Positions 2,960-59,270 of a stretch of 64,000 nt of DNA are shown piece after piece. Source of the stretch: Gracilimonas sp. Lineage in GTDB: Bacteria; Bacteroidota; Rhodothermia; Balneolales; Balneolaceae. The notes below the pieces were generated by a model that was not told where the DNA came from, did no database searches, and saw only the letters and a list, made by a program, of their open reading frames with translations. A program made the position numbers and the translations under genes. Location of the stretch: contig JAKURD010000015.1 in the NCBI GenBank assembly GCA_022450045.1, positions 16,767 to 80,766 of the forward strand, written 5' to 3'. How positions within the stretch are numbered: the first letter of the stretch is position 1; every line of letters begins with the position of its first letter.

Positions 2960-3473
2960 CTGTCCCTTTCCCTAACGCACTATGTGGTTAACGTGAGTTC
3001 GAGATAAAGAATGTTAGAATAGCTGCAAAATCCATCTGCCGGATACTCCGTCCGATGGATGGGCTGATCGATGGTGCAGGCGTAGGGTGTTGGATTAGAA
3101 TACGAACCGAACGTGGGTGCCCTACCCAGGCAATCGGTCAGATGGACTTAGAGCCATCAGACCGGGGGGCAGGGCAATCAACCCCGAACCCGATCTGATG
3201 GATCACCCATCTGATCGATTATACAGACGCAGGATGTTGGATTAGGATACGAACAAGCTTAGGCCCCCAATCAAACAATCGGTCAGACAGACTTGGAGCC
3301 GTCAGATCGTACCTTAAAGGCTTTAGCGAGGATAATTATATCGAACTGACGTTAGTTATATTTTTGATGGTTTCAGCAATCTCTTTTTTCAAATAACTAT
3401 TCTGCATCAATCGGTATGCGTCAAGGGAAAGGGGACGCCTTGGTGAGGATTTTAGCAGTTGGTGACATTTAGC
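2960..3473. repeat. Palindromic intergenic repeat, copy 2, apparently interrupted by a MITE-like element
   Basis: The left part (2960-2980, CTGTCCCTTTCCCT then AACGCAC) matches copy 1 at 1861. The right part (3417-3473, with GCGTCAAGGGAAAGGGGACG and CCTTGGTGAGGATTTTAGC) matches the tail of copy 1 at 1910-1960. The two parts are also inverted complements of each other (GTCCCTTTCCCT against AGGGAAAGGGGAC). The element at 2989-3354 and about 60 bp of other sequence lie between them. This reads as a nested insertion, which is inference. Confidence 0.5.
2989..3354 (+). mobile_element. MITE-like element, long class (A1)
   Basis: This is a non-coding element of about 366 bp bounded by imperfect terminal inverted repeats. 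The left end is TAACGTGAGTTCGAGATAA and the right end is TTATATCGAACTGACGTTA. Inside are two tandem subunits, each with GCAGG..G.ATGTTGGATTAG.ATACGAAC followed by a hairpin (CGGTCAGATGG at 3135 with CCATCAGACCG at 3154; CGATCTGATGG at 3191 with CCATCTGATCG at 3207). It is homologous over most of its length to the element at 58757-59073. No transposase is encoded, so mobilisation would need an enzyme elsewhere. Confidence 0.7.
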
Positions 3474-3506
3474 AAAAAATTGGACCACGGTTAAAACTGA
3501 AAATAG

Positions 3507-3537
3507 TTCGATATTCCTTGTTCTGCATTCGATGTTC
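3507..3537. repeat. Short periodic GAA-type repeat
   Basis: Read on the minus strand this is GAACATCG AATGCAGA ACAAGGAA TATCGAA, a run of near 8-base units starting with GAA or AA. It makes a spurious minus-strand translation (KNIECRTRNIE) that I would not annotate as a gene. It sits in the non-coding gap before the phosphohexomutase gene. Significance unknown. Confidence 0.35.
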
Positions 3538-3633
3538 TTTAGGCGTCTCCCAATGTTTTCATGAAACACCTGCTTTTATTATTTATATTTCTCTTCTTCA
3601 ATACAGTATTCATCAACAAAGATATTTGAGATA

Positions 3634-5370
3634 ATGAACGCATTAGATCCTGCAGTACAATCCAAAATTGACCAATGGCTTAACGGTAGTTACGATGAAG
3701 AAACCAAGGCCGAGATCCGGCAAAAATTGGACAATGAGAAATTCGATGAGCTTACCGACGCGTTCTACAAAGACCTGGAGTTTGGTACCGGGGGACTCCG
3801 TGGTATCATGGGAGTCGGCTCAAACCGGGTAAATAAATATACCTTTGGAATGGCCACTCAGGGACTTTCAAACTTCCTGAAAAAGCAATATTCGGGAGAG
3901 CACATAAAAGTTGTAATAGCTCACGATTGCCGAAATAATTCAGTGGAATTAGCCAATGTAGTAGCTAATGTATTTTCTGCAAATGGCATTAAAGTGTACT
4001 TTTTTGATGCACTCCGCCCTACTCCTGAATTGTCTTTTGCCATTCGGGAGCTTGGCTGTAAAAGCGGTGTGATGCTGACGGCCTCTCACAATCCTAAAGA
4101 ATATAATGGCTACAAAGCATATGGTGCTGATGGCGGACAACTTGTGGCTCCCTACGACAAAATGGTGATGGAAGAAGTTCAAAAGATCGCTTCGGTCGAT
4201 GAGGTTAAGTTTGAGCGTGATAATAGCCTCATTGAAATGATTGGGGCTGAAATAGATGAGAAATACCTGGACGAGTTAGTGAAGCTGTCCGTTTCAAAAG
4301 ATGCTATTGAACGGCAAAAGAATATGAAGATCGTCTTCTCCCCCATCCACGGAACCTCCCGAAAGCTGGTGCCCGCTGCTTTGGAAAGATTTGGCTTTGA
4401 AAATGTGATCCTGGTAGAAGAGCAAATGTCTGCTGATGGAAACTTCCCGACCGTGATATATCCGAATCCGGAAGAGAAAGAAGCGCTGGATATGGCTCTC
4501 AATAAAGCCAAAAAAGTGGATGCGGACCTTGTGATGGCTACCGATCCGGATGCCGATCGGGTTGGGATCGCCGTTAAGAATCTTGATAATGAATTTGTGC
4601 TTTTGAATGGAAATCAAACCGGTGCACTCCTAATCAATTACATGCTTACCGCATGGGAACAGACAGGTAAGATCACCGGAAATGAATACATCGTAAAAAC
4701 GGTAGTTACTTCATATATCATCGACCGTATTGCAGAATCAAAAGGAGTAGAATGTTTTAACACCCTGACCGGTTTTAAGTACATCGGGGAATTGATGACT
4801 AAACTGGAGGGCAAGAAGCAGTTCATTGCAGGTGGGGAAGAAAGCTACGGATACCTGGTCGGGGAACATGTCCGGGATAAGGATGCCGTGATCTCATGTG
4901 CCATTATCGCCGAAATGGCGGCTTTTTATAAAGATCAGGGAAGCAGTTTATACGAAGCTCTGCTTGATATGTATGTAGAATATGGCTTATTCCGGGAAAA
5001 CCTTGCTTCCGTATATAAGGAAGGTAAATCCGGTGCTGAAGAAATTCAGAAAATAATGATGAATTTCCGCGCGAATCCTCCCAAGAAACTCGGTGGGTCT
5101 CAGGTTGTAACGGTTAAAGATTACCAAACCTCAAAAGAAAAAAATATCGCAACCGGAAAGATCACGGATATTGAGCTCCCAAAATCAAACGTACTTCAAT
5201 TTATTACGGAAGATGGTGCCATTGTATCTGTACGCCCTTCCGGAACGGAGCCGAAGATCAAGTTTTACTGCAGCGTAAATACCAACCTGATGAGTCCTGA
5301 AGATTACAGTCAGGCCGTTGAGACCCTTGATAAGAGAATTCAAGTCATGATCGAAGCGCTGCAAAACTAA
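3634..5370 (+). CDS. pgcA: Phospho-sugar mutase (phosphoglucomutase/phosphomannomutase family)
   Basis: This cytoplasmic enzyme of 578 residues interconverts hexose 1- and 6-phosphates and feeds glycogen, nucleotide sugars and the cell envelope. All family landmarks are present in order: the GTGGLRGIMGVG start loop (about 51-62), the catalytic phosphoserine loop TASHNPKEYNGYKAYG (Ser about 151), the Mg2+ loop DPDADRVG (about 304), the sugar-binding GGEESYGYLVG (about 400) and the phosphate-binding RPSGTEPKIKFY (about 534). The length matches the larger PgcA-like phosphoglucomutases rather than the 450-residue PMM/PGM type. It stands alone, with repeats upstream and an unrelated gene downstream. 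The enzyme class is secure; glucose versus mannose preference cannot be read from sequence alone. Confidence 0.93.
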   Translation: MNALDPAVQSKIDQWLNGSYDEETKAEIRQKLDNEKFDELTDAFYKDLEFGTGGLRGIMGVGSNRVNKYTFGMATQGLSNFLKKQYSGEHIKVVIAHDCRNNSVELANVVANVFSANGIKVYFFDALRPTPELSFAIRELGCKSGVMLTASHNPKEYNGYKAYGADGGQLVAPYDKMVMEEVQKIASVDEVKFERDNSLIEMIGAEIDEKYLDELVKLSVSKDAIERQKNMKIVFSPIHGTSRKLVPAALERFGFENVILVEEQMSADGNFPTVIYPNPEEKEALDMALNKAKKVDADLVMATDPDADRVGIAVKNLDNEFVLLNGNQTGALLINYMLTAWEQTGKITGNEYIVKTVVTSYIIDRIAESKGVECFNTLTGFKYIGELMTKLEGKKQFIAGGEESYGYLVGEHVRDKDAVISCAIIAEMAAFYKDQGSSLYEALLDMYVEYGLFRENLASVYKEGKSGAEEIQKIMMNFRANPPKKLGGSQVVTVKDYQTSKEKNIATGKITDIELPKSNVLQFITEDGAIVSVRPSGTEPKIKFYCSVNTNLMSPEDYSQAVETLDKRIQVMIEALQN

Positions 5371-5560
5371 GCCATTTTGGTTTTCGTAGGCAGGCCAAAA
5401 TATTCTTACTATAAATTTAACGGACTGCCCGATTTCTCTTTACTTTCATAGCTAAACCTCATTAATTATTTGACAAGAATTAACAGAGGCAGATGGAACA
5501 CTCAGCATATAATTATGTTGTGTAAGTAAATTAGTTACATCTATTAAACAGGAGAAAATT

Positions 5561-6706
5561 ATGAGTGTTGTAAACAGAGAAACGATTGAAAAGCTTATCA
5601 GCAAAACTCAGGATATCAATGTCACCATATTTATTCCTACTCATAAAAGAGGGGAAGAAGGAAAACAAGACGCGATCCGTTTAAAGAATATTATTCAAAA
5701 GGCTAAAAATGATCTTATTGAAAAGGGATGGAAGGATGCCCGGGTAGATGAATTATTCAAACCTGTAATTGCAAAAACGGAAGAAAATCAATTTTGGCTT
5801 CATCAGGAAAAAGGTTTGGCGATCTATGTTAATGAAGAATATTTCGATGTGTTTAAGATCCCGGTCAGTCCTAAGGAAAACTATTATATCTCTGAGAATT
5901 TTTTGATCACACCATTACTTGAGCTTCAGAATCATCACAATGACTATCACGTGCTGCTATTGAGCCAGAATGAAACGAAAATGTTTAAAATAGCACCGGA
6001 TAAAACTACTCAGATAACTTTTGAAAGTGTTCCCACAAGTATGGAGGAGCATCTTAAATACCATGTGCATGAGCGATCGGTGCAGCATCATTCAGGTGCC
6101 AGTGGTGGTGGCTCTGTATTCCATGGTCAGGGTGGCGAGCTGGACGAGAACAACAAAGAGCTTGAGCTGTTCCTGAAGCATATTGAAAATAAGGTTACCA
6201 AATATCTGAAGAAAGTGAATGGCCCACTGGTGCTTGCCGGACCCGATAAAATGGTATCCTATTACAAAAAGGCGAATAAATATTTTAATGTACTTGATGA
6301 ATATATTTCAGGAAACTGTGATACCAAGAGCATTCAGGAAGTTGAGGAAGAATCCTGGAGCATTGTAGAGTCATATTTCAGAGAGGAAATTCACAGTGAT
6401 ATTGATCGCTTCAATAACTTGCGAGGCAGCGAATTGATCTCCACTGATGTAAGTGATATCGTGAAAGGAGCTTATTTCGGTAAAGTTGACACGCTGTTTG
6501 TGCCTATGGGATTTCATCAGTACGGTATTTTTGATACTGAAAAAAATCAGGTCGAAATATCAGATAATTTAAACGGGAAAGCCGTTGATCTGATCAACTA
6601 TGCGGCCATATCAGCAATCCGCAATGGAAGTACATTATATGGACTTCAGCAATCTGAGGTACCAAATAACTCCGGACTGGCGGCTATTTATCGCTATAAG
6701 TCCTGA
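5561..6706 (+). CDS. baeRF-type protein (bacterial homologue of archaeo-eukaryotic release factor/Pelota fold)
   Basis: The 381-residue soluble protein begins with a TIFIPTHKRGEEGKQDAIRL motif close to the IYMPTHRTGPE-type start of the baeRF families. It ends with the matching TLFVPMGFHQYGIF and SGLAAIYRYKS signature. In the middle is a glycine/histidine-rich loop (HHSGASGGGSVFHGQGGELD, about residues 175-195). Family knowledge: baeRF proteins were recognised by comparative genomics as bacterial relatives of eRF1/Pelota with a proposed role in ribosome rescue; biochemical roles are largely untested. The start has GGAGAAA 6-7 bp before the ATG. No partner gene is adjacent. The family call is from memory of its motifs, so moderate confidence. 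Confidence 0.7.
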   Translation: MSVVNRETIEKLISKTQDINVTIFIPTHKRGEEGKQDAIRLKNIIQKAKNDLIEKGWKDARVDELFKPVIAKTEENQFWLHQEKGLAIYVNEEYFDVFKIPVSPKENYYISENFLITPLLELQNHHNDYHVLLLSQNETKMFKIAPDKTTQITFESVPTSMEEHLKYHVHERSVQHHSGASGGGSVFHGQGGELDENNKELELFLKHIENKVTKYLKKVNGPLVLAGPDKMVSYYKKANKYFNVLDEYISGNCDTKSIQEVEEESWSIVESYFREEIHSDIDRFNNLRGSELISTDVSDIVKGAYFGKVDTLFVPMGFHQYGIFDTEKNQVEISDNLNGKAVDLINYAAISAIRNGSTLYGLQQSEVPNNSGLAAIYRYKS

Positions 6707-6786
6707 TCTTTGACTCAAGTTCGGTTCGGATGATAATTTCTTAAAATTCCTGTGAAGAAGAATAAAAATTATTCGAAGCCGGACTT

Positions 6787-6980
6787 TAACGTCAGATCGA
6801 GATAAAAACTAAGGTAAAAAGATAAAAATGGATGCTTGCGGTCATTCCCGTGGAGACGGGAATCTAAGTGTGGCCATTACTTCTTTATTTGATACCTGGC
6901 CAACCATAGGATTCAAGCATTCGCTGCGAAATGACTATTCAACGTGTTCTACAGATGGTCTTAATATCGAATTCACGTTA
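6787..6980 (+). mobile_element. MITE-like element, short class (B1)
   Basis: This is a 194 bp non-coding element with ends TAACGTCAGATCGAGATAA and ATATCGAATTCACGTTA. Its core carries a perfect hairpin, ATTCCCGTGGAGACGGGAAT (6844-6863). It matches the elements at 48789-48982 (same orientation) and 59076-59270 (inverted) along its whole length. It ends 7 bp from the stop codon of the minus-strand gene at 6988. Confidence 0.75.
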
Positions 6981-6987
6981 TTTTAAT

Positions 6988-7716
6988 CTATACTTCAGGC
7001 TTTATTCTCAACCACACAATTATATCTTCCGATTCATCGCCTCTGGTTTGCAACATTCGTCCGGATTCTTTACCTATCCAATAGTAGTATTTACTCTTGG
7101 AGTTTTTCCTTGAGATCACATATCTGAGGGCTTCATAATCATTGCCGTGAAGTGTTATTTGTTCTTCACCCAGTTCCTCAATGGTAACTACATCCTTTTT
7201 ATTGTTTGAAGAATAAACCGCAATACTCCACTTACTCCCTTCCTCTTTATCAATACCATACACCAAGGTTGGAAGCCAGTGAGAATCGTATCTCAACTCG
7301 CTAAATTCAACAGAATAGCTGGTATCCTGATTTAACCCAAAACTACTTCTTCGTGCCCGAACACCAACTTTTTCAGTTCCCGTATAGTTAACTGTGATGT
7401 TTTGACGGTTTTGCATGACCGAACGATATTTAATTGGAATGAAGCTCTTGAGATCCAGAAGCAAGCTGTCTCTCATTGCAACTCGATGAAAATCTTGTGC
7501 ATAAGTAATCAATAATGTGCTATCACGTCTTTCAACTTTTTCAGTGATCGTACCTGCTGTTGTTTCTTCCCCATTCATTTCTCTTACATATTCATAGATC
7601 TGAATGCCATCCGTTACATTTTCGCCGGAGAGAACCGGAGCTTTTTTCTGTGCGAATACTTCAGTTCCTGCAATCAAAAATAAAACAAGCGCAATAAGCT
7701 TAGCTATACTTCTCAT
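6988..7716 (-). CDS. Secreted DUF3108-like protein
   Basis: The 242-residue protein has a clean signal peptide (MRSIAKLIALVLFLIAGTEVFAQ, cleavage after about residue 22). The mature part is rich in short beta-strands, with ITVNYTGTEKVG, VEFSELRYDSHWLPTLVYGI and LRYVISRKNSKSKYYYWIG. This layout, with a repeated mostly beta scaffold ending in a (Y/I)WIGKESGRML strand, resembles DUF3108 and related periplasmic outer-membrane-binding folds. It is the last gene of a minus-strand run, 58 bp after dprA. A MITE-like element abuts its 3' end. The function is unknown and the family assignment tentative. Confidence 0.6.
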   Translation of the reverse strand: MRSIAKLIALVLFLIAGTEVFAQKKAPVLSGENVTDGIQIYEYVREMNGEETTAGTITEKVERRDSTLLITYAQDFHRVAMRDSLLLDLKSFIPIKYRSVMQNRQNITVNYTGTEKVGVRARRSSFGLNQDTSYSVEFSELRYDSHWLPTLVYGIDKEEGSKWSIAVYSSNNKKDVVTIEELGEEQITLHGNDYEALRYVISRKNSKSKYYYWIGKESGRMLQTRGDESEDIIVWLRIKPEV

Positions 7717-7774
7717 GATAAATAAGATAATTTTTCTGTTATGAATACGGTACGAACTTAATGTTCTTCCGGAT

Positions 7775-8902
7775 CTATTTTAATTCGAAGATCTTACCGG
7801 CCCTTTGTTGAACCAGGCCTTCCATTTCAAGCTGCAATAAAGTAACCAAAAGTTGGCTCGTATTTACGCCTAATTCTTCGCTGAGATCATCGATCTGATA
7901 GGCCTGATTCTCCAAAGCTTCACAAATCTTCGCAGAAGGTTTATCCAGGCCCAGATCTCTCCAGTTCGGTTTTGGAGATTCATTTTCTATTTTAACTTGT
8001 TCATCGCCTTCATATTCTACCGGCAACTCTTCTAAAATATCATCTATTGTTTGAACAAGCTTGGCGGCCCCTCTTTTGATCAAATAATTACAGCCTGTTC
8101 CTGAGGGATTTCCCAAAGAATGGGGCACGGCAAATACTTCTCTGTTTTGATCAAGCCCAAGATCAGCTGTAATCATGCTTCCACCTTTTATGCCGGATTC
8201 AACTACCAAAACTCCCAGACTCATTCCACTTACAATCCTATTCCTGACCGGGAAATTCACTGCATCTGGATTAGTTCCCAATGGATATTCTGTGATCACG
8301 GCCCCTCCGCTTTTTACGATATTATTGGCAAGGGCGGTGTTTTTCTTAGGATACAAATTGTCGATACCTGAACCTAATACAGCTACTGTAGATGCCTTAT
8401 GTTCAAGGGCGGTTTTATGTGCAATGGAGTCGATGCCATAGGCCAATCCGCTAAAGATACACATTCCCTGATCGGCTAATTCCCCGGTTAATTTTTCTGC
8501 CATGGTACGTCCGTATGCAGATGTATTCCTGGTCCCAACCACCGCAATTCCGGGTTTTGAAAGTGCTTCAGGATTCCCCTTCATCCAAAATAAAACGGGA
8601 GGATCGTAAATTTGCTTTAGTAAAGGCGGGTAATCAGAGTCCGCCATGGTAATGATCTTTGAACCGCTTTTTTCAGTTTCAGCAAGTATCTGATCCACTT
8701 TATCCCAATCATCGAAAGAAAGCAAGGATAAAGCTGACGCCTCTCCTATTCCTTCTACAGTTCGAAGTTTCCGCTTGCTTAGCCGGAAGATCTCTTCTGG
8801 ATCTTCAATATGTTTAAGCAAGTTAAAAACCCGGCGGCAACCAAAGCCCGGGATAATGCTAAGTGCGGTAAGTACCCTAAGTTTCTTGTTGTTCTTTTGC
8901 AT
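7775..8902 (-). CDS. dprA: DNA-processing protein DprA
   Basis: DprA binds single-stranded DNA taken up during natural transformation and loads RecA on it. The 375-residue protein has an N-terminal helix-hairpin region (RKLRTVEGIGEASALSL), then the Rossmann-like core with GTRNTSAYGR, SGLAYGIDSIAHKTAL, GSGIDNLYPKKN, NFPVRNRIVSGMS and GGSMITADLGLDQNREVFAVP. A C-terminal winged-helix (DML1-like) domain follows (about 310-375). It starts inside the end of obg (26 bp overlap), so translation is probably coupled. DprA does not by itself prove competence, since it is nearly universal. Confidence 0.95.
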   Translation of the reverse strand: MQKNNKKLRVLTALSIIPGFGCRRVFNLLKHIEDPEEIFRLSKRKLRTVEGIGEASALSLLSFDDWDKVDQILAETEKSGSKIITMADSDYPPLLKQIYDPPVLFWMKGNPEALSKPGIAVVGTRNTSAYGRTMAEKLTGELADQGMCIFSGLAYGIDSIAHKTALEHKASTVAVLGSGIDNLYPKKNTALANNIVKSGGAVITEYPLGTNPDAVNFPVRNRIVSGMSLGVLVVESGIKGGSMITADLGLDQNREVFAVPHSLGNPSGTGCNYLIKRGAAKLVQTIDDILEELPVEYEGDEQVKIENESPKPNWRDLGLDKPSAKICEALENQAYQIDDLSEELGVNTSQLLVTLLQLEMEGLVQQRAGKIFELK

Positions 8903-9875
8903 ATTGAATCAATTCCCAAAGTTTCTCTCTCAGTTCATCGACGCCGTGACCGGTTGCCGAAGAAATAGGAATAACGGGAATTTCATCATCAAAGTGAAGT
9001 TCTTCTTCAAGCTCAAACCCTTGTTTTAAATCCATCTTTGTGATGGCAAGTACACGGGGTTTATCTAATAAGTCTTTTCGATAAGATTTGAGCTCATTGA
9101 GCAGGGCATGGTATTCGTACTCTATGTCTGTCATAGCGCTTACCATGAAGAGCAGTACATTATTTCGCTCGATATGTCTCAGGAATTGAATCCCCAGGCC
9201 TTTTCCTTCATGGGCTTCTTCAATGATTCCCGGAATATCCGCCATTACAAAACTTCGATAATCTTCGAATTTAACCACTCCCAGATTAGGTTCCAGCGTG
9301 GTAAATGGGTAATCTGCGATTTTTGGTTTGGCGTGAGACAGGGCTGAAAGTAAGGTGCTTTTCCCCGCATTTGGGAATCCTACCAAACCGACATCCGCAA
9401 TAAGTTTAAGCTCTAATTCAACAACACGTTCTTCACCGGGTTTTCCCTCCTGTGCATGTTGCGGGGTCTGATTGGTTGAGCTCTTAAAATGCCAGTTTCC
9501 CAATCCACCCTTACCTCCTTTAGCTATCACAAGCTCTTGTTCATGTTCGGTGATCTCGCCTAATCGCTCTTTGGTTTCGGCATCAAAAACTACCGTTCCC
9601 AATGGGACTTCCAGCCTCTGCGATTCACCGTCGGCACCTGTACGGCGCTGCTTTGAGCCATGCTCAGCCGGCTTTGCCTTGATATATTTTCGATACCTCA
9701 GGTCAAGAATGGTATTCAACTGTTCATTTCCTACCAGAATCACATCTCCGCCTTTACCCCCGTCCCCTCCGTCCGGACCGCCTTTGGGAACATACTTCTC
9801 CCTTCTAAAGTGACGAGAACCATCTCCACCTCGTCCGGCTGTAACATAAATTTTGGCGTAATCAGCGAAGCGCAT
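8877..9875 (-). CDS. obgE: GTPase Obg/CgtA
   Basis: This essential ribosome-associated GTPase acts in 50S assembly and stress control. The 332 residues contain the glycine-rich OBG fold (GRGGDGSRHFRREKYVPKGG, then GGDGGKGGDVILVG, about 1-158). The G domain follows with G1 GFPNAGKSTLLSAL, a TTLEPNLGVV switch, G3 DIPGIIEEAHEGKGLG and G4 ITKMDL. It ends after the G domain without the C-terminal OCT domain of some Gram-positive Obg proteins. The ATG at 9875 starts the conserved MRFADYAKIYV. It overlaps dprA downstream by 26 bp. Confidence 0.96.
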   Translation of the reverse strand: MRFADYAKIYVTAGRGGDGSRHFRREKYVPKGGPDGGDGGKGGDVILVGNEQLNTILDLRYRKYIKAKPAEHGSKQRRTGADGESQRLEVPLGTVVFDAETKERLGEITEHEQELVIAKGGKGGLGNWHFKSSTNQTPQHAQEGKPGEERVVELELKLIADVGLVGFPNAGKSTLLSALSHAKPKIADYPFTTLEPNLGVVKFEDYRSFVMADIPGIIEEAHEGKGLGIQFLRHIERNNVLLFMVSAMTDIEYEYHALLNELKSYRKDLLDKPRVLAITKMDLKQGFELEEELHFDDEIPVIPISSATGHGVDELREKLWELIQYAKEQQET

Positions 9876-9934
9876 GGTGTTTTTCTAAATGATTGATACT
9901 GAAGGTAATTCCCGTTCAGTAAATAAATTGGTAA

Positions 9935-12109: not shown

Positions 12110-12182
12110 AAAAATATTCTGGGTTTAAAAAAGAAAAGAACGCTATTCGCATTCTTTTCGGTATTAAGTATTTGGAAAAAAA

Positions 12183-23899: not shown

Positions 23900-23929
23900 T
23901 GGTCAGACGGCTTAAAGCCAGTCTGACCA
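23900..23929. terminator. Strong hairpin between convergent genes
   Basis: TGGTCAGAC (23900-23908) pairs with GTCTGACCA (23921-23929), with an inner GGCTT/AAGCC pairing. It lies between convergent genes (ends at 23848 and 24026) and could stop transcription both ways, although the T-run is weak. The words resemble the hairpins inside the long MITE-like elements (GGTCAGATGG/CCATCAGACC), so it may instead be a REP-like unit. Confidence 0.5.
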
Positions 23930-24025
23930 TTCTTGACGAGTTTGCAGGTTAATAAAGCAGAGCATATCCATCAGAGGGGGTATCCGTCAGATGGATTTTC
24001 TAAAACATTTTTATCCCTATTCACT

Positions 24026-48788: not shown

Positions 48789-48982
48789 TAACGTCAGTTT
48801 GAGATAAGAACTAAGTCAAAAGGATAAAATGGATGCTTAAGGTCCTTCCCGTGGAGACGGAAATCTAAGTGTTGCCATTCATTCAGTATCCGATACCGGA
48901 CAAACCATAGGGTTTCGGGCATTCGCTGCGAAATGACCCTTCAAAGCCTTCAACAGATGGTCTTTATATCAAATTCGCGTTA
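48789..48982 (+). mobile_element. MITE-like element, short class (B2)
   Basis: This is a 194 bp non-coding element. It runs from TAACGTCAGTTTGAGATAA to TATCAAATTCGCGTTA, in the same orientation as the copy at 6787 and the same length. The core hairpin is TTCCCGTGGAGACGGAAA (48845-48862). It lies between dusB and a small membrane-protein gene. Confidence 0.75.
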
Positions 48983-51243: not shown

Positions 51244-51388
51244 TAACCGCCAAATCATTTCACCTCACTTTACGTTTACTTACTAAAGTAAGAATCATTA
51301 ACTTACGTCATTCTGACAGTAAAAATAATAGGCCTGATTGTCCTTTTAAAATTCGGATATTCAGGCTTAACCTTGATATATAGACTTT

Positions 51389-52681
51389 ATGGATCGCGAA
51401 GTTTTTCAGGAACAATTTGGATTACTCGGCACCTCCGAAGCCATGCGGCAGGTGATCGATAAAATTATGCAGGTGGCAAAAACCGATATTACGGTTACCC
51501 TTCAGGGAGAAAGCGGCGTTGGTAAAGATGTGACTGCACGAGCCATTCACGCTATGAGTGAGCGCAGCAGAAATAACCTGGTGATCGTAAACTGTGGCGC
51601 TATTCCGGAAGGTATTATTGAAAGTGAACTTTTCGGACATGAAAAAGGAGCTTTTACCGGTGCCGAAACCTCACGTGAAGGATATTTTGAGAAGGCCAAC
51701 GGCGGCACCATTTTTCTTGATGAGATCGGGGATACTCCTAAGAATGTACAGGTTAAATTGCTCCGGGTTCTCGAAAATGGCGAATTTTTCAGAGTAGGGT
51801 CAAGCAAAGTCCAAACTACGGATGTACGCGTGGTAGCTGCAACCAATCAGGACCTTTGGAAAATGGTAAAAGAAGGGGCTTTTCGGGAAGACCTCTATTA
51901 TCGGTTAGATACCGTTCAGATCAAGCTTCCTCCGCTAAGAGACCGCCCGGAAGATATCATCCCGATCTTTAAAAAATTTGTAGAAGAATATTCTGCCCGT
52001 TATGACTCTGTATTCAAAGGATTTTCTGATGAAGCCCGGGAATTATTGATCTCCTATCGCTGGCCCGGTAATGTTCGGGAACTACGAAATGTAGCCGAAC
52101 AATTAGTGGTTCTCGAAAAATCTCAATTCATTGACAAAAAAAAGCTTCAGAAATATTTGAAAGGTCGGCAGCATGAAGGAAGTGCAGATAACCTCCCGAT
52201 GGTGGCCGGCCGAAACCGGGAACACAGTTCTTCTGATTCGGACGAAGGATTTAACCGCAAAGACCGTGAGCTGGTGTATCGGGCACTCGTAGAATTACGA
52301 AATGATATCGCTGATGTAAAAAAAATGTTCGCTAACTTTCTTTACTCCACTTTCAACACAAAAGCCCTGAAAGCCTTACCCGCTTCGGTACGGGATGAAG
52401 TTGACAAAACAGAAGTCTCCGGGGTTAATGTAAACCTTGGTGACCATGCCACACTTGGTATGCAATCGATGCCTGATGAAACGGATATTGAAGAGTCTGA
52501 AGATACCGAACTAAGTGATTTTCTTAAGGACAATAAAATTCCCTCCATTGAGGAAGCTGAAAAATTTCTTATTCAGCAAGCTCTCAAACGTTTTGACGGT
52601 AACCGCAGAAAAGCCTCAGAAACACTGGGCGTGAGTGAACGAACCCTTTACAGGAAACTGGATCAATATGGCTTGGACTAA
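51389..52681 (+). CDS. Sigma-54-dependent transcriptional activator without receiver domain
   Basis: The 430-residue AAA+ activator starts directly with the ATPase domain (about 8-240). It shows Walker A GESGVGKD, the sigma-54 contact loop EKGAFTGAE, Walker B GGTIFLDEIGD and the RWPGNVRELRN sensor. A linker of about 150 residues and a C-terminal Fis-type HTH (RRKASETLGVSERTLYRKL) follow. No N-terminal receiver, GAF or PAS domain is present, so control must come from elsewhere (PspF-like organisation). The lptE-like gene starts inside its last codons, which ties envelope assembly to its expression. Confidence 0.93.
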   Translation: MDREVFQEQFGLLGTSEAMRQVIDKIMQVAKTDITVTLQGESGVGKDVTARAIHAMSERSRNNLVIVNCGAIPEGIIESELFGHEKGAFTGAETSREGYFEKANGGTIFLDEIGDTPKNVQVKLLRVLENGEFFRVGSSKVQTTDVRVVAATNQDLWKMVKEGAFREDLYYRLDTVQIKLPPLRDRPEDIIPIFKKFVEEYSARYDSVFKGFSDEARELLISYRWPGNVRELRNVAEQLVVLEKSQFIDKKKLQKYLKGRQHEGSADNLPMVAGRNREHSSSDSDEGFNRKDRELVYRALVELRNDIADVKKMFANFLYSTFNTKALKALPASVRDEVDKTEVSGVNVNLGDHATLGMQSMPDETDIEESEDTELSDFLKDNKIPSIEEAEKFLIQQALKRFDGNRRKASETLGVSERTLYRKLDQYGLD

Positions 52682-53183
52682 AACTTGGATCCTGATCGCT
52701 TTATGTGCAGGTTTTTTATTCAGCGGATGTCTCCGTTATAGCTTTACAGGTGCTTCCATCCCCCCCGGTGTCGATACCATTTATATTCCTTTCTTTCCTG
52801 ACCAATCTAACAGTGGACTTGGAGACCTCAGTAACAGGCTAAACCAGATCCTCATCAATCGCTTTGTGAACCAAAGCAGGCTGCAACTGGCCAATAACGA
52901 AGCTGATGCTGACGCTGTACTTGATGGCATCATAACTTCTTATTCCAACCGCCCATTCAGTATTGGGGGAAATGAACAAGCCAATGAAAACCAGGTTTCT
53001 ATAACAGTAAGAGCAACTTTTCTTTATACTTCTAATGATGAACCTGAGTGGACTAATTCATTTACCGGAAGTTTTACTTATGACCCTTCTGAAAATCCCA
53101 TTGAGGGAGAAAATTCAGCTGCCAACGGGGCCCTGGAACAAATAGCTAATAATATGTTCAATGATGCGGTAAGTAATTGGTAA
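52668..53183 (+). CDS. lptE: LptE-like outer-membrane lipoprotein
   Basis: The start at 52668 gives MAWTKTWILIALCAGFLFSG C, a lipoprotein signal with lipobox SGC (Cys21). An upstream in-frame ATG would ruin it. The mature part (RYSFTGASIPPGVDTIYIPF F, LNQILINRFVNQSRLQLA, ADAVLDGIITSYSNRPFSI) is the LptE pattern of Bacteroidota relatives, which plugs LptD in lipopolysaccharide export to the outer membrane. It overlaps the activator gene by 14 bp and precedes a TPR-like gene. Confidence 0.85.
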   Translation: MAWTKTWILIALCAGFLFSGCLRYSFTGASIPPGVDTIYIPFFPDQSNSGLGDLSNRLNQILINRFVNQSRLQLANNEADADAVLDGIITSYSNRPFSIGGNEQANENQVSITVRATFLYTSNDEPEWTNSFTGSFTYDPSENPIEGENSAANGALEQIANNMFNDAVSNW

Positions 53184-53239
53184 TTTACTTTGATTGTAAG
53201 GCCGCTTCACTTTATTATTGCTAATCCTTAACCATTTTT

Positions 53240-53851
53240 ATGCAACAACTTCCTTTCAACATACCTAAGTCTCTCACTTCCTTTGTGGATAAGTTTGAAG
53301 AGGACCCTGAAAAGGTCACTCAAAAGCTAAAGAAACACCTGCATAAACGCGGGCCGGATGCGGTGGGTCATTTTTTACTTTCCTGGTTTTATCACCTTCA
53401 GAACAAAAACAAGAAAGCTGTAACACAAGCACTAAAAGCAAAAACCTATGCCCCGGGAAGCCCCCTGATGGAGCACCTGCATTATTTTTTAGTCCATCCG
53501 GAAAAATTTGAAGCTGCCATTCCTGTTCATTCTTATACTTCTTCAAAAGTGAAGCTGCAGCAGGGATCCCGAACATCCCCTATTCTTGATCTTGACCGCC
53601 TGATCGAGATGCTGGAACAGGTTGAGTCTAAACGAATACAGGTTCCAGCAGATGATGAGCCTTTTGATGATTCAGATCTCAGTAAAGAAGCCGAACAAGT
53701 AGATGACCTGGTATCAGAGACCTTGGCTAAGATCCATACCAAACAAGGCCGCAAAAAAGAGGCCGTTAAAATGTACGAGCGGCTTATCGATAAGAACAGT
53801 GATAAAGCGGATCACTATAAGGAACAGATCGAAAAGTTAAAGAAAGCCTGA
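53240..53851 (+). CDS. TPR-like protein of unknown function
   Basis: The 203-residue soluble protein has helical repeats: an N-terminal LTSFVDKFEEDPEKVTQKLK, GHFLLSWFYHLQNKNKKAV TQALKAKTYAPGSP, and a C-terminal TPR-like unit (LAKIHTKQGRKKEAVKMYERLID KNSDKADHYKEQI). A low-complexity acidic linker lies between (VPADDEPFDDSDLSKEAEQV). It follows lptE by 56 bp and is probably co-transcribed, so it may act in the same process. No family recognised beyond TPR. Confidence 0.75.
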   Translation: MQQLPFNIPKSLTSFVDKFEEDPEKVTQKLKKHLHKRGPDAVGHFLLSWFYHLQNKNKKAVTQALKAKTYAPGSPLMEHLHYFLVHPEKFEAAIPVHSYTSSKVKLQQGSRTSPILDLDRLIEMLEQVESKRIQVPADDEPFDDSDLSKEAEQVDDLVSETLAKIHTKQGRKKEAVKMYERLIDKNSDKADHYKEQIEKLKKA

Positions 53852-53861
53852 TTTTCTTTGG

Positions 53862-54485
53862 CTATTTAACGAACGGATTATGTTGTTTCTCGTGGCCTAT
53901 TGAAGTTTTAGGACCGTGACCGGGATAGACAATTGTTTCATCCGGCAATACATAAAGCTTTTCTTTGATACTTTTTTCAAGCACTTCAAAATCACCTTTA
54001 TATAAATCCGTTCTGCCAATGCTTTCCTTGAAAAGTGCATCTCCAGCGATCACTAATTCCTCAGCCTTAAAATACAATGAGACATGATCAGGCGAGTGTC
54101 CAGGGGTATATAAACAGGTGAACGAAAAGTTACCGATCTCAAATGTTCCTTCAGAAATAAGTACCTCAGGTTCAAAATCAAAGCCACCCTGATTGATGCC
54201 AAACATCTGCGCCTGACTTCCAAAATTACTCCACAGAAATCGATCTTCATTGCACAAATATACAGGAACGTCAAAATCACGGAGAACGCGATTCAACCCT
54301 AACACATGATCCACATGTGCATGAGTTAAAACAATGGCTTTGAGCTGTCCGGTTAGGGATTCTTTGAATTTTTGATACTCCGGCTCCCTTGAAAATCCGG
54401 GATCAATGAGCAGATGCTGCTCCCCCTCGGTTAGTAAATGTGTGTTTTCTAAAAATGGGCCTACTTCAAATATTTGTACTTCCAT
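53862..54485 (-). CDS. Metallo-beta-lactamase-fold hydrolase (glyoxalase II-like)
   Basis: The 207-residue protein has the metal-binding THAHVDHVLGLN (HxHxDH), a GHSPDHVSLYFKAEELVIAG D motif with His and Asp, and a final VYPGHGPKTSIGHEKQHNPF V. This is the small GloB/YcbL-like group that hydrolyses thioesters such as S-lactoylglutathione or related compounds. The substrate here is not known. It converges on the TPR-like gene and is followed upstream by rpmE on the same strand. Confidence 0.9.
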   Translation of the reverse strand: MEVQIFEVGPFLENTHLLTEGEQHLLIDPGFSREPEYQKFKESLTGQLKAIVLTHAHVDHVLGLNRVLRDFDVPVYLCNEDRFLWSNFGSQAQMFGINQGGFDFEPEVLISEGTFEIGNFSFTCLYTPGHSPDHVSLYFKAEELVIAGDALFKESIGRTDLYKGDFEVLEKSIKEKLYVLPDETIVYPGHGPKTSIGHEKQHNPFVK

Positions 54486-54500
54486 ATTTCAAAAATAAAA

Positions 54501-54529
54501 AAAGGATGCACCTGAAAGATACATCCTTT
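54501..54529 (-). terminator. Intrinsic terminator of rpmE
   Basis: AAAGGATG (54501-54508) pairs perfectly with CATCCTTT (54522-54529). On the minus strand a T7-rich run follows. It separates rpmE from the MBL hydrolase gene. Confidence 0.85.
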
Positions 54530-54548
54530 AGTAAAATGTTCGCGCTGC

Positions 54549-54770
54549 TTACTTATCTTCACCTTTACCATATCGACGCTTGAAGCGGTCAACACGGCCG
54601 GCTGTAGAAGTAAATGTATTGCTTTTCGTATAGAATGGATGGTTTTTAGAATCAACCTCACTGCGATAAACGCCGTCTTTAACGTCCATGGTGCTGCGGG
54701 TTGTAATTTCGGTACCATCACTCATCAATACCTTAATTTCTTTGTAATCTGGATGAATTCCTTTTTTCAT
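54549..54770 (-). CDS. rpmE: 50S ribosomal protein L31, cysteine-free form
   Basis: The start at 54770 gives the invariant MKKGIHPDY. A longer frame adds nine unlikely residues. The 73-residue protein has HPFYTKSNTFTSTAGRVDRF KRRYG at the C terminus, as in L31. The zinc-binding cysteines of the common form are absent: the CxC/CxxC pair is replaced by VLMSDGT (14-20) and VDSKNHPFY (39-47). It is therefore the zinc-independent (C-) form. No second L31 gene lies in the window. It has its own terminator. Confidence 0.92.
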   Translation of the reverse strand: MKKGIHPDYKEIKVLMSDGTEITTRSTMDVKDGVYRSEVDSKNHPFYTKSNTFTSTAGRVDRFKRRYGKGEDK

Positions 54771-54842
54771 AATCGTGTGCTTGCTTGAAATTTGCAAAGG
54801 CTTTAAATATAAGCTTAACTTAAGCTGAATTCAACGAAATTA

Positions 54843-56330
54843 TTACTCAAATTCATCGAAGCCTTCATCGCTGTAATCTCCCAAAGATGAGAACATAGAA
54901 CCAAGCATATCAGAGTATAAAGTTTGGTCGTCAAGGTCTTGCTTACTGAGCATTGAATTCTGATGCAGGGCTTCCAAAACGAAATCCATCCAAATGGATT
55001 TTTCGTTCTTTGGGATCTCCTCACTGTATTTATCTACCAATTCTTTCAGGCCTTTCACCCCTTTCAGAGCGGCTTCATACTCTTTATTTGAGAGTGTATC
55101 CGTGATGTTGATCTCATTGCCATCAGCAAACCAATCGGTGACAGCCTTATATACTGATTTCTGTTCTTCTGATTTTGACTGCGGGTCCGGAAAATGCACC
55201 TTGAACGTTTTGCTGATCGCTTTACCAAGAATATGCTTCGCCACACTGATCGCTCCCTCCTGTTCTCCTTCATACACCAGCTCGATCTTTCCGGTTAGCG
55301 CAGGAACCATATGATACAGATCAGCGATTCGTACCGAAGTTTCCTTTTCATCATTTAGAATTGCCCTGCGCTCAGCCGAGGAAACCACTTGTTCTAAAGC
55401 AGTAATCGTCATCCGGGTTGAAACTCCACTTTTTTGATCCACATATTCTGATTCCCGGGCTTCAAAAGCTGCTCTCTCAATGGTCTGTCTGAAGAGATCC
55501 GGTATATGGATCTTGATCCTGCTCTCGCGTTCCTGCCAGGCTTCCTGCCTGGTTATCTCCATCCCGATACCCATCTCTTTGGGATAATGGGTGATGATCT
55601 GTGAATCAATACGATCTTTCAGTGGAGTAATGATGTTTCCCCGATTGGTATAATCTTCGGGGTTTGCAGAAAATGCCATAGCAATATCGAGCGGAATGCG
55701 CACATTAAATCCCCTAATTTGAATATCACGCTCCTGCATGATGTTAAGTAGCGCCACCTGGATTCTGGGTTGAAGATCAGGCAGCTCATTGATCACAAAG
55801 ATCCCGCGATTGGTCCGGGGAATAAGCCCAAAATTGATCACATTTTGGTCTGCCAAAGTCAGTTTTTTAGTAGCAGCTTTGATCGGATCAATATCACCGA
55901 TCAGGTCTGCAACCGTTGTATCAGGAGTAGCCAGTTTTTCTCCGTAACGGAATGAGCGGTGAAGCCAGTCTATCGGGGTTTCGTCTCCTTTTTCTTCTAT
56001 AAGATTCTTAGCAAATTTTGAAAGCGGATTGAATGGATCATCATTGATCTCCGATCCCTTGACAATGGGGATGTACTCATCCATGAAGTTAACCATCAGC
56101 CTCAGGATCCGGGTTTTTGCCTGCCCCCGCAATCCCAGCAAAATCATGTCATGCTTTGATAATAATGCGTGCTGAATCTGTGGTAAAACGGTCTTTTCAT
56201 ATCCTAAAATACCGGGAAACAATTCTTCTTTATTCCTGATCTTATTGATCAAATTCCGGCGGATCTCTTCTTTGACCGAAACCGATTCCCAACCACTTTT
56301 CTTGAGCTCACCTAAGGTAGATGCCTTCAT
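54843..56330 (-). CDS. MoxR/magnesium-chelatase-like AAA+ ATPase
   Basis: The 495-residue protein has LLGLRGQAKTRILRLMVNF at the P-loop (GxxGxAKT, without the usual GK) and a Walker B of GIFVINELPDLQPRIQVALL with Asn before Glu instead of Asp. MAFSANPEDYTNRGNIITPL KDRI is the sensor region. The C-terminal half is helical. I recall the same features (RGQxKTR, NELPD) in homologues annotated as magnesium chelatase, so they are family traits. Partners are usually VWA-domain proteins; none is adjacent. The role is unknown, perhaps chaperone-like. Confidence 0.85.
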   Translation of the reverse strand: MKASTLGELKKSGWESVSVKEEIRRNLINKIRNKEELFPGILGYEKTVLPQIQHALLSKHDMILLGLRGQAKTRILRLMVNFMDEYIPIVKGSEINDDPFNPLSKFAKNLIEEKGDETPIDWLHRSFRYGEKLATPDTTVADLIGDIDPIKAATKKLTLADQNVINFGLIPRTNRGIFVINELPDLQPRIQVALLNIMQERDIQIRGFNVRIPLDIAMAFSANPEDYTNRGNIITPLKDRIDSQIITHYPKEMGIGMEITRQEAWQERESRIKIHIPDLFRQTIERAAFEARESEYVDQKSGVSTRMTITALEQVVSSAERRAILNDEKETSVRIADLYHMVPALTGKIELVYEGEQEGAISVAKHILGKAISKTFKVHFPDPQSKSEEQKSVYKAVTDWFADGNEINITDTLSNKEYEAALKGVKGLKELVDKYSEEIPKNEKSIWMDFVLEALHQNSMLSKQDLDDQTLYSDMLGSMFSSLGDYSDEGFDEFE

Positions 56331-56398
56331 TCTTTTTTTATCTGATGTGAATTTTCTTGTGTGTGTTTATAACCCTTATTACAAAGTCTTCATTCAGG

Positions 56399-57667
56399 TT
56401 ATTCATCCTTCGCTAAAATATTTGTGATTGCACGGGTTTTGATCAAGGTTTCTTCCCATTCAGCTTTAGGATCAGAGTCACTGGTAATAGCCCCGCCCAC
56501 CGGATACACAAGTTTATTTTCCTCAATGATCGCCGTTCTTATGATGACATTAAAATCGAAATCGTCATCGGGTTTTATATATCCCAATGCCCCGGAATAG
56601 ATCCCTCTTTGATAATTTTCATACTCTTCAATGGCACGCATTGCAGCGATCTTGGGAGCACCGGTCATGGAGCCCATCGGGAAACATGCTTTTATTACCT
56701 CAATGCTGTCAGCTTCATCCTTCACTTCGCACTCCACCGTTGACACCATCTGGTGAACTGTTTCAAAGCTCTGTATCTCAAACAACCCTGATACTTTCAC
56801 ACTGTTCTTCACGGATATCCGGCTCAGGTCATTTCTCACCAGATCTACGATCATGAGATTTTCTGCCCGCTCTTTTTCTGAACTTCTTAGCTTTTCAATG
56901 TTTTGATCTGCGTTTTTTCCCGGCTCTCTGGGAATGGTTCCCTTTATGGGCTGAGACCAGACTTTTTTCCCTTTTCGAGCCAGAAATCGCTCCGGGGAAG
57001 CACAGCAAACTGACAGATCATCCAAAGTTAAATATCCCCCAAAAGGAACCGGCCCGGTATTTTTCATGGATCTATAAAGTGCAAAACTGTCTCCCTTAAA
57101 TGTAAATTCAACCGGATGGGAAAGGTTTACCTCGTAATACCCTCCTTCAAAAATGTCGTTTTGGGCCTTCTTTACCAAATTCAGATATGCAGATTCCTCC
57201 ATTCTATTCGATAGTTCGATTGTGAAGTCTTTTCCAGCCTCGGGAGATTCCCTTTCATCTGGCAGCTCTCCTTTCAGAATATTGAACGAACCGTCTTTAT
57301 TGAACTCTAACAACAAGCCCGGAACTATAAAATACATATCGGGGGCTTTATTCAATTTTGGATTGTCTGAACTTAGATCTTCCAAAAAATTTTTAAGATC
57401 GTAGCCAAGATACCCAAAGAGCCAATCGTCATGTTCCTCTCTGAATTCCTGAAGTGCAGTCCAGGGATTTGAATGAATCACACTTTTTTCTTCTTTCTGA
57501 ATATGGATCTCACCGCCATATGCTTTTATGGCTGCTTCCGGGAGTGCCGCAAGATAACTTTTGGTGCTTGCCGGATGATCATCCATTTGTGATTCCAGCC
57601 ACACCACAGTCCCTTTCTCCTTTAGGCGGAAGATCAAATTCGATATGTAATGCTCATTTTTTTGCAT
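56399..57667 (-). CDS. pabB: Aminodeoxychorismate synthase component I
   Basis: The chorismate-binding enzyme of 422 residues is used for 4-aminobenzoate (folate) synthesis. It has WLFGYLGYDLKNFLEDL, GGYYEVNLSHPVEF, CASPERFLARKGKKVWSQPI KGT and VDLVRNDLSR. It also has FPMGSMTGAPKIAAMRAIEE and GALGYIKPDDDFDFNVIIRT A. The PIKGT lysine is the PabB nucleophile and argues against TrpE. The glutamine amidotransferase partner and pabC are not adjacent. It is divergent from pyrD (67 bp apart). Confidence 0.9.
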   Translation of the reverse strand: MQKNEHYISNLIFRLKEKGTVVWLESQMDDHPASTKSYLAALPEAAIKAYGGEIHIQKEEKSVIHSNPWTALQEFREEHDDWLFGYLGYDLKNFLEDLSSDNPKLNKAPDMYFIVPGLLLEFNKDGSFNILKGELPDERESPEAGKDFTIELSNRMEESAYLNLVKKAQNDIFEGGYYEVNLSHPVEFTFKGDSFALYRSMKNTGPVPFGGYLTLDDLSVCCASPERFLARKGKKVWSQPIKGTIPREPGKNADQNIEKLRSSEKERAENLMIVDLVRNDLSRISVKNSVKVSGLFEIQSFETVHQMVSTVECEVKDEADSIEVIKACFPMGSMTGAPKIAAMRAIEEYENYQRGIYSGALGYIKPDDDFDFNVIIRTAIIEENKLVYPVGGAITSDSDPKAEWEETLIKTRAITNILAKDE

Positions 57668-57734
57668 GATTTCAGGCGAACGAGTATAAGGGTTCTTTCA
57701 CTCTTTTTGAACGTTTTTTCGTATCATTATAGCA

Positions 57735-58775
57735 ATGATCTACGAAAAGCTTATTAAACCGATTTTATTTAAAAAAGATGCCGAACAAGCTCACGAATGG
57801 GCTCTTAAACTGGCATCATTGACCAACCGTTCACGGCTTTTGCAAGAATTTATCTCGCGGGTTTTCAGAAATTCTGACTCGGGTCTGGAGCAGGAATTAT
57901 TTGGGCTCACTTTTCCCAACCCCATTGGGCTTGCAGCAGGATTTGATAAGAACGGAACAACACCACGAGCCATGCAGGCTTTGGGCTTCGGTTTTGTTGA
58001 AGTCGGAAGCATCACGGCAAAGCCATCATCAGGAAATCCCAGGCCGAGAGCATTCAGAATTCCCGAAGATCACTCACTCATCAACAGGATGGGATTGAAT
58101 AATGAAGGGGCTGATAGAATTACCGAACGACTTTCCAATTTGAACCTGGATATTCCGCTTGGGGTGAATATCGCCAAAACCAACGATCCTTCTATTCACG
58201 GTGATGCCGCCCTTCAGGATTACCTATACAGCTATGTAAAAGCTCAGCCGGTGGCTGACTACATCACCGTAAATATTTCCTGCCCTAATACCGGAGAGGG
58301 CAAAACTTTTGAAAGTCCTCAGGCTTTGCATGATCTTTTAGAAACTCTTGAGCCCGCAAAAGAGGACCGAAAGCCCACGCTTATAAAATTCACCGTAGAT
58401 ATTGATAAGCCGGCTCTGAAAAAATTAATCACTATCTGTGAAAACTTTGGAATCTCCGGGTATGTTGCCTCCAATACCTCGTCTGTGAGAGAAGGGCTAA
58501 ATACACCAAACCCTATTCTGGATTCCATTGGAAATGGAGGGATAAGCGGAAGGGCTATTCAAAAACGAAGTACCCAAGTGGTACGCTGGATAAGAGAAAT
58601 AGCAGGAAAAGAGAAACCCATTATCGGTGTGGGCGGAATTGACAGTCCTGAAGCAGCATTAGAAAAATTAGAAGCCGGAGCAGATCTCCTTCAACTTTAT
58701 ACCGGACTGGTTTACAAGGGTCCCGGGTTGGTGCGATCCATTAAAAAGAAACTAACTAGCGTGAATTCGAAATAA
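57735..58775 (+). CDS. pyrD: Dihydroorotate dehydrogenase (quinone), class 2
   Basis: PyrD oxidises dihydroorotate to orotate at the inner face of the membrane using quinone. The 346 residues have an amphipathic N terminus (LIKPILFKKDAEQAHEWALK L), GLAAGFDKNGTTPRAMQALG FGFVEVGSIT, NRMGLNNEGADRI, VNISCPNTG with the catalytic serine region, and GVGGIDSPEAALEKLEAGAD LLQLYTGLVYKGP. The last residues (S-V-N-S-K) and the TAA stop are read from the left end of a MITE-like element (58757 on), so the natural C terminus has been replaced. This tail is beyond the active site. Confidence 0.94.
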   Translation: MIYEKLIKPILFKKDAEQAHEWALKLASLTNRSRLLQEFISRVFRNSDSGLEQELFGLTFPNPIGLAAGFDKNGTTPRAMQALGFGFVEVGSITAKPSSGNPRPRAFRIPEDHSLINRMGLNNEGADRITERLSNLNLDIPLGVNIAKTNDPSIHGDAALQDYLYSYVKAQPVADYITVNISCPNTGEGKTFESPQALHDLLETLEPAKEDRKPTLIKFTVDIDKPALKKLITICENFGISGYVASNTSSVREGLNTPNPILDSIGNGGISGRAIQKRSTQVVRWIREIAGKEKPIIGVGGIDSPEAALEKLEAGADLLQLYTGLVYKGPGLVRSIKKKLTSVNSK

Positions 58776-59073
58776 AGAATGTTAGAATAGCTGCAAGATC
58801 CGTCTGATGTATGGGCTGATTGATGGGGTAGGCGCAGAATGTTGGATTAGGTTAAGGAAAAGACGCAGGTGCCCTAATCAGACAATCGGTCAGATGGACC
58901 TGGAGCCATCAGACCGAGAGGCAGTGCAAACAGCCACGGATTCGATCTGATGGAAACCCCATCTGATCGATGACACAGGTCCCGGATGTTGGAGTAGGAT
59001 AAGAACAAGCTTGGGTGCTCACAAGCATCCATTTTTGTCCTTTTAACTTAGTTCTTATCTCGAACTCACGTTA
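58757..59073 (+). mobile_element. MITE-like element, long class (A2)
   Basis: The element is about 317 bp. It runs from TAGCGTGAATTCGAAATAA, inside the pyrD 3' end, to TTATCTCGAACTCACGTTA. It matches the element at 2989 through AAGAATGTTAGAATAGCTGC, the hairpins CGGTCAGATGG/CCATCAGACCG (58887/58906) and CGATCTGATGG/CCATCTGATCG (58943/58959), and GGATAAGAACAAGCTT. Its right 60 bp match the left ends of the short class. The next element starts 2 bp later. Confidence 0.75.
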
Positions 59074-59075
59074 AC

Positions 59076-59270
59076 TAACGTGAATTCGATATAAAGATCA
59101 CCGGTTGAACACGTTGAATGGTCAGTTCGCACCGAGTGCCCGAAATCCTATGGTTGGTCAGGTATCGAATGCTGAATGAATGGCAAACATTGGATTCCCG
59201 TCTCCACGGGAATGACCACAGGCAACCATTTTTATCCTTTTCATTTATTCCCTATTTCGAACTCACGTTA
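59076..59270 (-). mobile_element. MITE-like element, short class (B3), inverted
   Basis: This 195 bp element is the reverse complement of the B1/B2 type. It runs from TAACGTGAATTCGATATAA to TTTCGAACTCACGTTA with hairpin ATTCCCGTCTCCACGGGAAT (59193-59212). Only AC separates it from the A2 element. It ends 7 bp past the stop codon of the minus-strand gene at 59278. Confidence 0.75.

Follow-up and report, generated by a model that had tools for sequence, protein, structure and literature searches.

A 64,000-nucleotide stretch of the Gracilimonas sp. genome (GenBank assembly GCA_022450045.1, contig JAKURD010000015.1, positions 16,767 to 80,766 of the forward strand; the window) carries five short elements with shared inverted ends. 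Very probably these belong to a large family of miniature inverted-repeat transposable elements (MITEs) that has ends of the IS982 family of insertion sequences (IS), modules that reassort, and cores of the repetitive extragenic palindrome (REP) type drawn from separate repeat systems. IS982-derived MITEs are already known; the unusual part is that REP palindromes ride in MITEs of the DDE type. The host genome (G000; 3.5 Mb in 71 contigs, with the window on contig C7) carries more than 100 short gene-free elements of this kind.

Elements in the window and across the host genome

Within the window, TTAACGTGAGTTCGAGATAA was matched seven times with at most three mismatches and never in 100 shuffles, which excludes chance for the window termini; a relaxed end pattern recovered 10/10 predicted ends together with one extra match (shuffled mean 2.73). 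An initial annotation, made from the sequence alone, had proposed five MITE-like elements with shared termini, and these are confirmed by the end matches, by target duplications and by two empty sites described below. It placed them correctly but 2 bp too wide on each side: the exact ends are inverted copies of ACGTGAGTTCGAGATAA, and the outer TA belongs to the target duplication. Its short class holds, whereas its long class is in fact two, CD (362 bp) and AC (313 bp), the letters denoting end types.

2991-3352, + strand: MITE of class CD (C end left, D end right), 362 bp; termini with 0 and 2 mismatches, class from end types
6789-6978, + strand: MITE of class AB, 190 bp; from its termini
48791-48980, + strand: MITE of class AB, 190 bp; from its termini, with the near-perfect duplication TACTTTA/TACTTCA
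58753-58758, no strand: target duplication TAACTA, with further copies at 59072-59077 and 59269-59274
58759-59071, + strand: MITE of chimeric class AC (C end left, A end right), 313 bp; from end types, with a perfect TAACTA duplication
59078-59268, − strand: MITE of class AB, 191 bp; from end types, with TAACTA on both sides

Aligned over their full length, the three short elements are 80-82% identical, as expected from the earlier claim that this class is homologous over its whole length. In each of the five, the longest complete open reading frame (ORF), 24-52 aa, falls short of the 95th percentile for shuffled sequence, which agrees with the claim that none encodes a protein; the window elements have the terminal inverted repeats, the length below about 500 bp and the absence of coding capacity that mark MITEs. 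Exact duplications flank only the last two of them (both TAACTA/TAACTA). The duplication of 2991-3352 is inexact (TGGTTA/TAGTTA), and that of 6789-6978 has decayed (GACTTTA/TATTTTA, 2/7 positions differing). The order TAACTA, AC element, TAACTA, AB element, TAACTA across 58759-59268 suggests insertion in a pre-existing target duplication, and from this arrangement the AB element probably sits within the target duplication of the preceding AC element.

Genome-wide, termini with at most three mismatches numbered 128 forward and 116 reverse (244), compared with 0 and 1 in the control, so the search for further copies that the initial annotation proposed was amply answered. DNA searches of the host returned 41 matches for a short-element query and 46 for a long-element query, with the best 40 of 129 and the best 40 of 139 candidates scored, respectively. 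Our host catalogue samples the 3.5 Mb: it draws on the window, on 400 kb of contig C1 and on 90 loci of roughly 3 kb each. The C1 sample and the window (464 kb) hold 23 elements with paired ends less than 520 bp apart; 0/23 lie more than half inside a gene proxy, the proxies being ORFs, not annotations, and covering 83% and 86% of the two sequences. Among 79 catalogued elements, exact duplications of 6, 7 and 8 bp occur in 23, 11 and 1 cases (2.95, 0.42 and 0.035 with shuffled right flanks), and most of the 6-8 bp duplications start and finish with TA. A TA-only duplication of the Tc1/IS630 type, which had been our guess from the window alone, is ruled out by these lengths.

Two empty sites fix the element ends independently, and homology breaks exactly there. 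At L062, a CD element splits an approximately 180-bp element of another class and duplicates TATCTA; two uninterrupted copies of the target element in C1 were aligned, and further matches are present. At L020, an AB element splits a CD element and duplicates TATTTTA, for which the empty copy reads CATTTTA. Median pairwise identities are 85% for AB, 78% for CD and 86% for AC, after 3/39 AB, 10/23 CD and 1/15 AC copies had been dropped before alignment as shortened or atypical; the closest AB pair and the closest AC pair are each 98.4% identical. These values indicate that the elements are mostly old, with some younger. A scan of viral contigs for the end motif gave 0 matches.

Some neighbouring features of the window touch these elements. 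An ORF at 57735-58775, which we take to be a dihydroorotate dehydrogenase from its resemblance, ends inside the AC element (58759-58775), and its last residues and stop codon come from the MITE end. By eye, 1740-1935 and 2920-3440 are two copies of another repeat, in which a REP hairpin is followed by CCCTTTCCCT and then by AAGGGA; the 2991-3352 element seems to have inserted into the second copy, and similar insert-free copies lie at L328 and L315 (75-76% identity). Solitary REP-type hairpins with no MITE ends lie at 1728-1834 and 23901-23994. A tRNA scan of the window found 0 genes.

Modular ends and the IS982 link

Clustering of 70 bp from each of 158 ends gave four subterminal types (groups of 55, 40, 39 and 24), and the 79 elements pair them as AB 39, CD 23, AC 15, AD 1 and BC 1. 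The modular exchange first proposed for the cores is borne out by these recombining types: the 58759-59071 element is an AC chimera, and over roughly its right 50 bp it is 83-90% identical to the left end of the short class, as had been noticed earlier. AC length is uniform (311-322 bp in 14/15 copies) and several copies have duplications of their own, so that AC probably spread as a single unit following one founding event. How chimeras arise may be read from two loci. In the BC case, L073, the left part of a CD element is joined to an AB body at GATAAGAAC, a stretch common to the CD and A consensus; the AB left end is missing and a D end is located downstream. A second CD-AB fusion, L065, lacks the intervening ends. 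On the evidence of these fusions, deletion between neighbouring elements is the likely route. The reassorting ends show how old neighbouring MITE families can give rise to new ones. A CD element is itself interrupted at L072:1751-2014, by a MITE-like element of another sort that has ends CCAATAGCGTCCTAAACGTT.

For the origin of the ends, we scanned GTDB genome contigs with the end motif, single matches to which may be chance. Among the matches listed, three elements of about 1 kb have both ends and an ORF: L205 (1029 bp, Bacteroidetes GSL.Bin13), L169 (Galbibacter) and L139 (Bacteroidales). Those of L205 and L169 encode transposases of the IS982 family (NF033520, 2.5e-74 and 4e-77), and by tblastn the L139 protein is similar to them. 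Both L205 ends have 0 mismatches, its target duplication is TAAATA, and it shares 20 identical bp with the A ends. L251, in a genome of the window's own bacterial family (G106), has the same transposase and ends, apparently at the same locus. Ends therefore match between IS982 elements and MITEs, and their duplications are alike in kind, TAAATA in L205 and L251 and TA...TA in the MITEs. Other IS982 genes or fragments have ends of this kind close by, one or two each. L185, about 450 bp long with one mismatch at each end, encloses a fragment of an IS982 transposase and looks like a deletion derivative. The full-length IS with the same terminal repeats that the initial annotation suggested looking for is thus found as an intact IS982 in the same bacterial family, though none was found in the host assembly. 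A survey of 92 genomes of this family found such ends (at most two mismatches) in 50, an IS982 gene above the cut-off in five, and one at E 0.001 in 16.

MITEs usually, though not necessarily, share a genome with an autonomous partner; a search of the host found no IS982 transposase. In G058, a genome in one contig, 11 termini were counted and IS982 gave no match. The family thus looks like an orphan in the host, although a repeated IS could have dropped out of an assembly in 71 contigs. It might be argued that another resident DDE transposase, such as an IS5-like one, mobilises ends that merely share this motif, since no IS982 transposase was found in the assembly and yet some copies are 98.4% identical. 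We regard this as unlikely: loss of the IS from the assembly could account for the same facts, and each of the three listed elements that have both ends, a length of roughly 1 kb and an ORF carries an IS982-type transposase. Wider end pairs, moreover, enclose ORFs that are not transposase-like, both at a fourth listed pair 3.8 kb apart (L158), which we read as unrelated ends, and, by eye, at two pairs in C1 that lie 943 and 1460 bp apart.

REP-type palindromes in the cores

The initial annotation overlooked the REP-type palindromes that the cores contain. A palindrome of A, B or CD type is present in 75/76 host elements, compared with 5/145 equal-length windows taken 900 bp away, which may overlap other elements; this set and the 79-element set used for duplications differ in their mismatch limits. 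Similar elements in other genomes carry palindromes in 8/59 cases among the matches listed, compared with 0/105 control windows. The AB core comprises two palindromes in inverted arrangement, GTCATTCCCGTGGAGACGGGAATC and GTCATTTCGCGGCGAATGCCCGAAATC. The CD core has units spaced about 146 bp apart with hairpins CGGTCAGATGG-CCATCAGACCG and CGATCTGATGG-CCATCTGATCG, visible in the 2991-3352 element as an internal direct repeat with a spacing of 145-147 bp; Tandem Repeats Finder did not report these units. The window holds the following.

3030-3060, + strand: REP-type hairpin CCATCTG..CCGATGG in the CD element; by eye like the hairpins beside the transposase gene of G057, G059 and G062 discussed below
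3135-3164, + strand: REP hairpin of the REP-associated tyrosine transposase (RAYT) type, CGGTCAGATGG..CCATCAGACCG, unit 1; palindrome scan
3191-3217, − strand: RAYT-type REP hairpin CGATCAGATGG..CCATCAGATCG; palindrome scan
3280-3309, + strand: RAYT-type REP hairpin, unit 2; palindrome scan
6842-6864, + strand: dRS3/CGTC-like palindrome TCATTCCCGTGGAGACGGGAATC of the AB class; other copies at 48843-48865 (+) and 59193-59215 (−)
6908-6934, − strand: inverted partner palindrome of GTCATT type, AB class; other copies at 48910-48936 (−) and 59122-59148 (+)
58887-58916, + strand: RAYT-type REP hairpin in the AC element; palindrome scan
58943-58969, − strand: RAYT-type REP hairpin of the second type in the AC element; palindrome scan

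A RAYT-like gene connects the CD and AC cores to a repeat system of their own. At C1:375585-376838, recognised by reading the sequence, two groups of CD-type hairpins, with no MITE end within 420 bp, flank a 202-aa ORF that lies at L247:15882-16490. The ORF matches the RAYT model NF047646 (4.2e-18, 65.6 bits) and, weakly, Y1_Tnp (3.4e-4) and the solved TnpArep chain 4er8 (0.0021); relatives of the protein occur in 63/92 genomes of the bacterial family. Hairpins lie on both sides of the RAYT gene in G000, G026, G057, G059 and G062 (30 RAYT loci examined; 0/30 in reversed controls), and one or two weak hairpins were seen at the RAYT loci of G102, G089 and G032. Palindromes of the CD and AC cores thus flank a RAYT gene, albeit one whose model score is below the curated cut-off. 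The inner hairpin stems covary: 386/399 pairs are complementary in 133 hairpins, a figure inflated by related copies, whereas shuffled 3' arms give a mean of 296 and a maximum of 318. As to a GTAG-like tag at one end, GYAG stands at a 4-nt offset in 40/145 host-set hairpin matches, a count that mixes orientations and hairpin types and has no computed chance level. In a Y1_Tnp search, for which the RAYT near 376 kb of C1 was below threshold, 30 loci held only isolated weak hairpin matches and one GTCATT-like hairpin in L362; the same 30 loci gave only two single weak matches to ACGTGAGTTCGAGATAA ends.

The AB core resembles a different class of REP. The Neisseria dRS3 pattern is ATTCCC-N8-GGGAAT, and ATTCCCGTGGAGACGGGAAT fits it. 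A CGTC/TGTC tag was not borne out for this core, as TCATT is preceded by GG in 23/41 host A palindromes, AG in 9/41 and TG in 1/41. Family searches with AB and CD elements gave many matches that cover the middle only, and one locus each in G004, G005, G006, G009 and G013 has an AB-type pair with no MITE end (at most four mismatches) in 500 bp. In the C1 and window sample, A-type palindromes lie within 420 bp of a MITE end in 14/14 cases, one being adjacent to an element and not clearly within it.

Two further observations concern MITEs of related kinds. Another class, with ends ACCTGAGTTCGATTA, is about 180 bp long and has a GTCATT pair inside (e.g. C1:41953-42132 and C1:193051-193230). Its terminus was matched 12 times in 400 kb of C1 (L229-L248) and 0 times in the reversed control; the class lies outside the set of 79 elements. 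An IS982 element present five times in G042 has a right end similar to the ends of this class. At least 51 palindrome-free pairs of IS982-type ends 110-500 bp apart occur in Bacteroidota, Cyanobacteria, Chloroflexi and others, mostly at L123-L219. IS982-type MITEs may be more widespread than reported, and some of these pairs may be chance.

Two other explanations bear on the cores. The elements might be ordinary MITEs, internal-deletion derivatives of an IS982 element in which the cores are IS remains or random filler and the palindromes coincidental. Internal deletion is the standard origin of MITEs (for MITECca01 of Cardinium, see the account in PMC9769881), L185 exemplifies it outside the host, and the listed elements of other genomes without these hairpins would conform to it. 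We nevertheless consider it improbable. No IS982 protein match was found in the host assembly (E 0.001) and no convincing one in the host sample even at E 10; DNA comparison with seven IS982 sequences showed nothing in common with the cores farther than about 40 bp from an end, bar one 15-bp match; and such cores also stand next to a RAYT gene, or by themselves in relatives. These alignments support IS982-type ends for the elements but no origin by deletion from the seven sequences compared, which would not include the true parent.

Conversely, the whole element, ends included, could be the product of a RAYT system, as with RAYTs flanked by long terminal inverted repeats, termed TIRtrons in the relevant section of PMC3733652. 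RAYT-associated palindromes fill the CD and AC cores, as such an origin would have it. The host RAYT locus, however, has palindromes with no MITE terminus within 420 bp, and the ends belong to IS982 elements. HUH Y1 transposition is not known to make target duplications of this kind, whereas the MITEs make duplications of 6-8 bp. We hold this origin to be very improbable.

A number of points weigh against a family with IS982 ends and REP-type cores. An IS982 transposase was found in 0/10 genomes of the genus (the host and nine others, E 0.001), so the mobiliser is inferred from other genomes, even though identity reaches 98.4% between the most similar copies of AB and of AC. L169 has no clear target duplication, and that of IS982 is clear in one copy only. 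The REP cargo is limited to a lineage, 51/59 listed elements of other genomes being without hairpins. The RAYT score of 65.6 bits is below the curated cut-off of 80, and 22/30 RAYT loci have no such hairpin. No GTCATT palindrome array was found in 60 Y1/RAYT loci, with a single match in L362, and the standalone AB-type cores may have MITE ends that have decayed past recognition. A conserved RNA in the AB class was not supported, with compensatory change in 0/20 consensus pairs. In the AC class, compensatory changes affect 3/77 pairs. Folding relative to shuffles gave z -4.1 for one CD element, -4.9 for one AC and -1.4 for one AB, and the stronger folding of CD and AC could be explained by their palindromes alone.

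A possible route and related systems

We propose that an IS982 transposase, acting in trans, would have recognised any two inward-facing ends and moved the DNA between them. Deletions between neighbouring elements, by microhomology or after same-site insertion, would have united ends of different parents, and the AC chimera would then have been amplified as a family of its own. REP units may have entered IS982 ends or been enclosed by them and then multiplied as passengers; either order, REPs into a MITE or MITE ends around REPs, would serve. On this arrangement, a single non-autonomous element seems to combine two nested transposition systems that are unrelated to each other. That DDE-type MITEs acted as carriers, IS982 ends having captured two unrelated REP systems (RAYT-type and dRS3/CGTC-like) and spread them genome-wide, is a proposal that we make tentatively, with doubt slightly outweighing confidence. 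If it is true, REPs gain a second, RAYT-independent route of proliferation. CGTC/dRS3-like REP pairs inside elements with DDE-transposon ends and target duplications are a testable route for REP spread.

We found no report of this MITE family in the titles and abstract openings of the open-access literature, nor one of a REP within a MITE in that literature. The first description of the elements as possibly undescribed may hold for the family within open-access text; it does not hold for the kind, as an IS982-derived MITE is in print (PMC9769881). That paper's account of Cardinium cOegib gives MITECca01, related to ISCca4 (IS982), as about 240 bp long and present in 169 copies, with intact copies of the parent IS. 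Like MITECca01, the Gracilimonas elements are IS982-derived, without a transposase gene, very high in copy number and mostly intergenic. Unlike it, they lack a parent within the assembly, draw on four end modules that can be exchanged and have cores of the REP type, whereas Cardinium is described as having the parental IS and two similar MITEs.

As described for REPINs and RAYT-associated REPs in the relevant parts of PMC3116915 and PMC3733652, the palindromes here form inverted pairs, flank a RAYT gene on both sides and have covarying stems; unlike REPINs as presented there, all 14 A-type palindromes of the C1 and window sample accompany a DDE-type MITE end. CGTC/dRS3-like REPs are reported from five phyla, apparently without a dedicated transposase, in PMC3733652. 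The AB core is like dRS3 and CGTC-1 REPs in the fit of ATTCCCGTGGAGACGGGAAT to the dRS3 pattern and in its inverted dimers, and unlike CGTC-1 REPs in that the base preceding GTC is usually G or A, not C, and that the pair is carried inside a MITE. REP dimers of A. variabilis and H. neapolitanus are regularly associated with longer palindromes that enclose them (PMC3733652). The passage on those palindromes names no transposon family, whereas in Gracilimonas an IS982 end, with target duplications, forms the outer palindrome.

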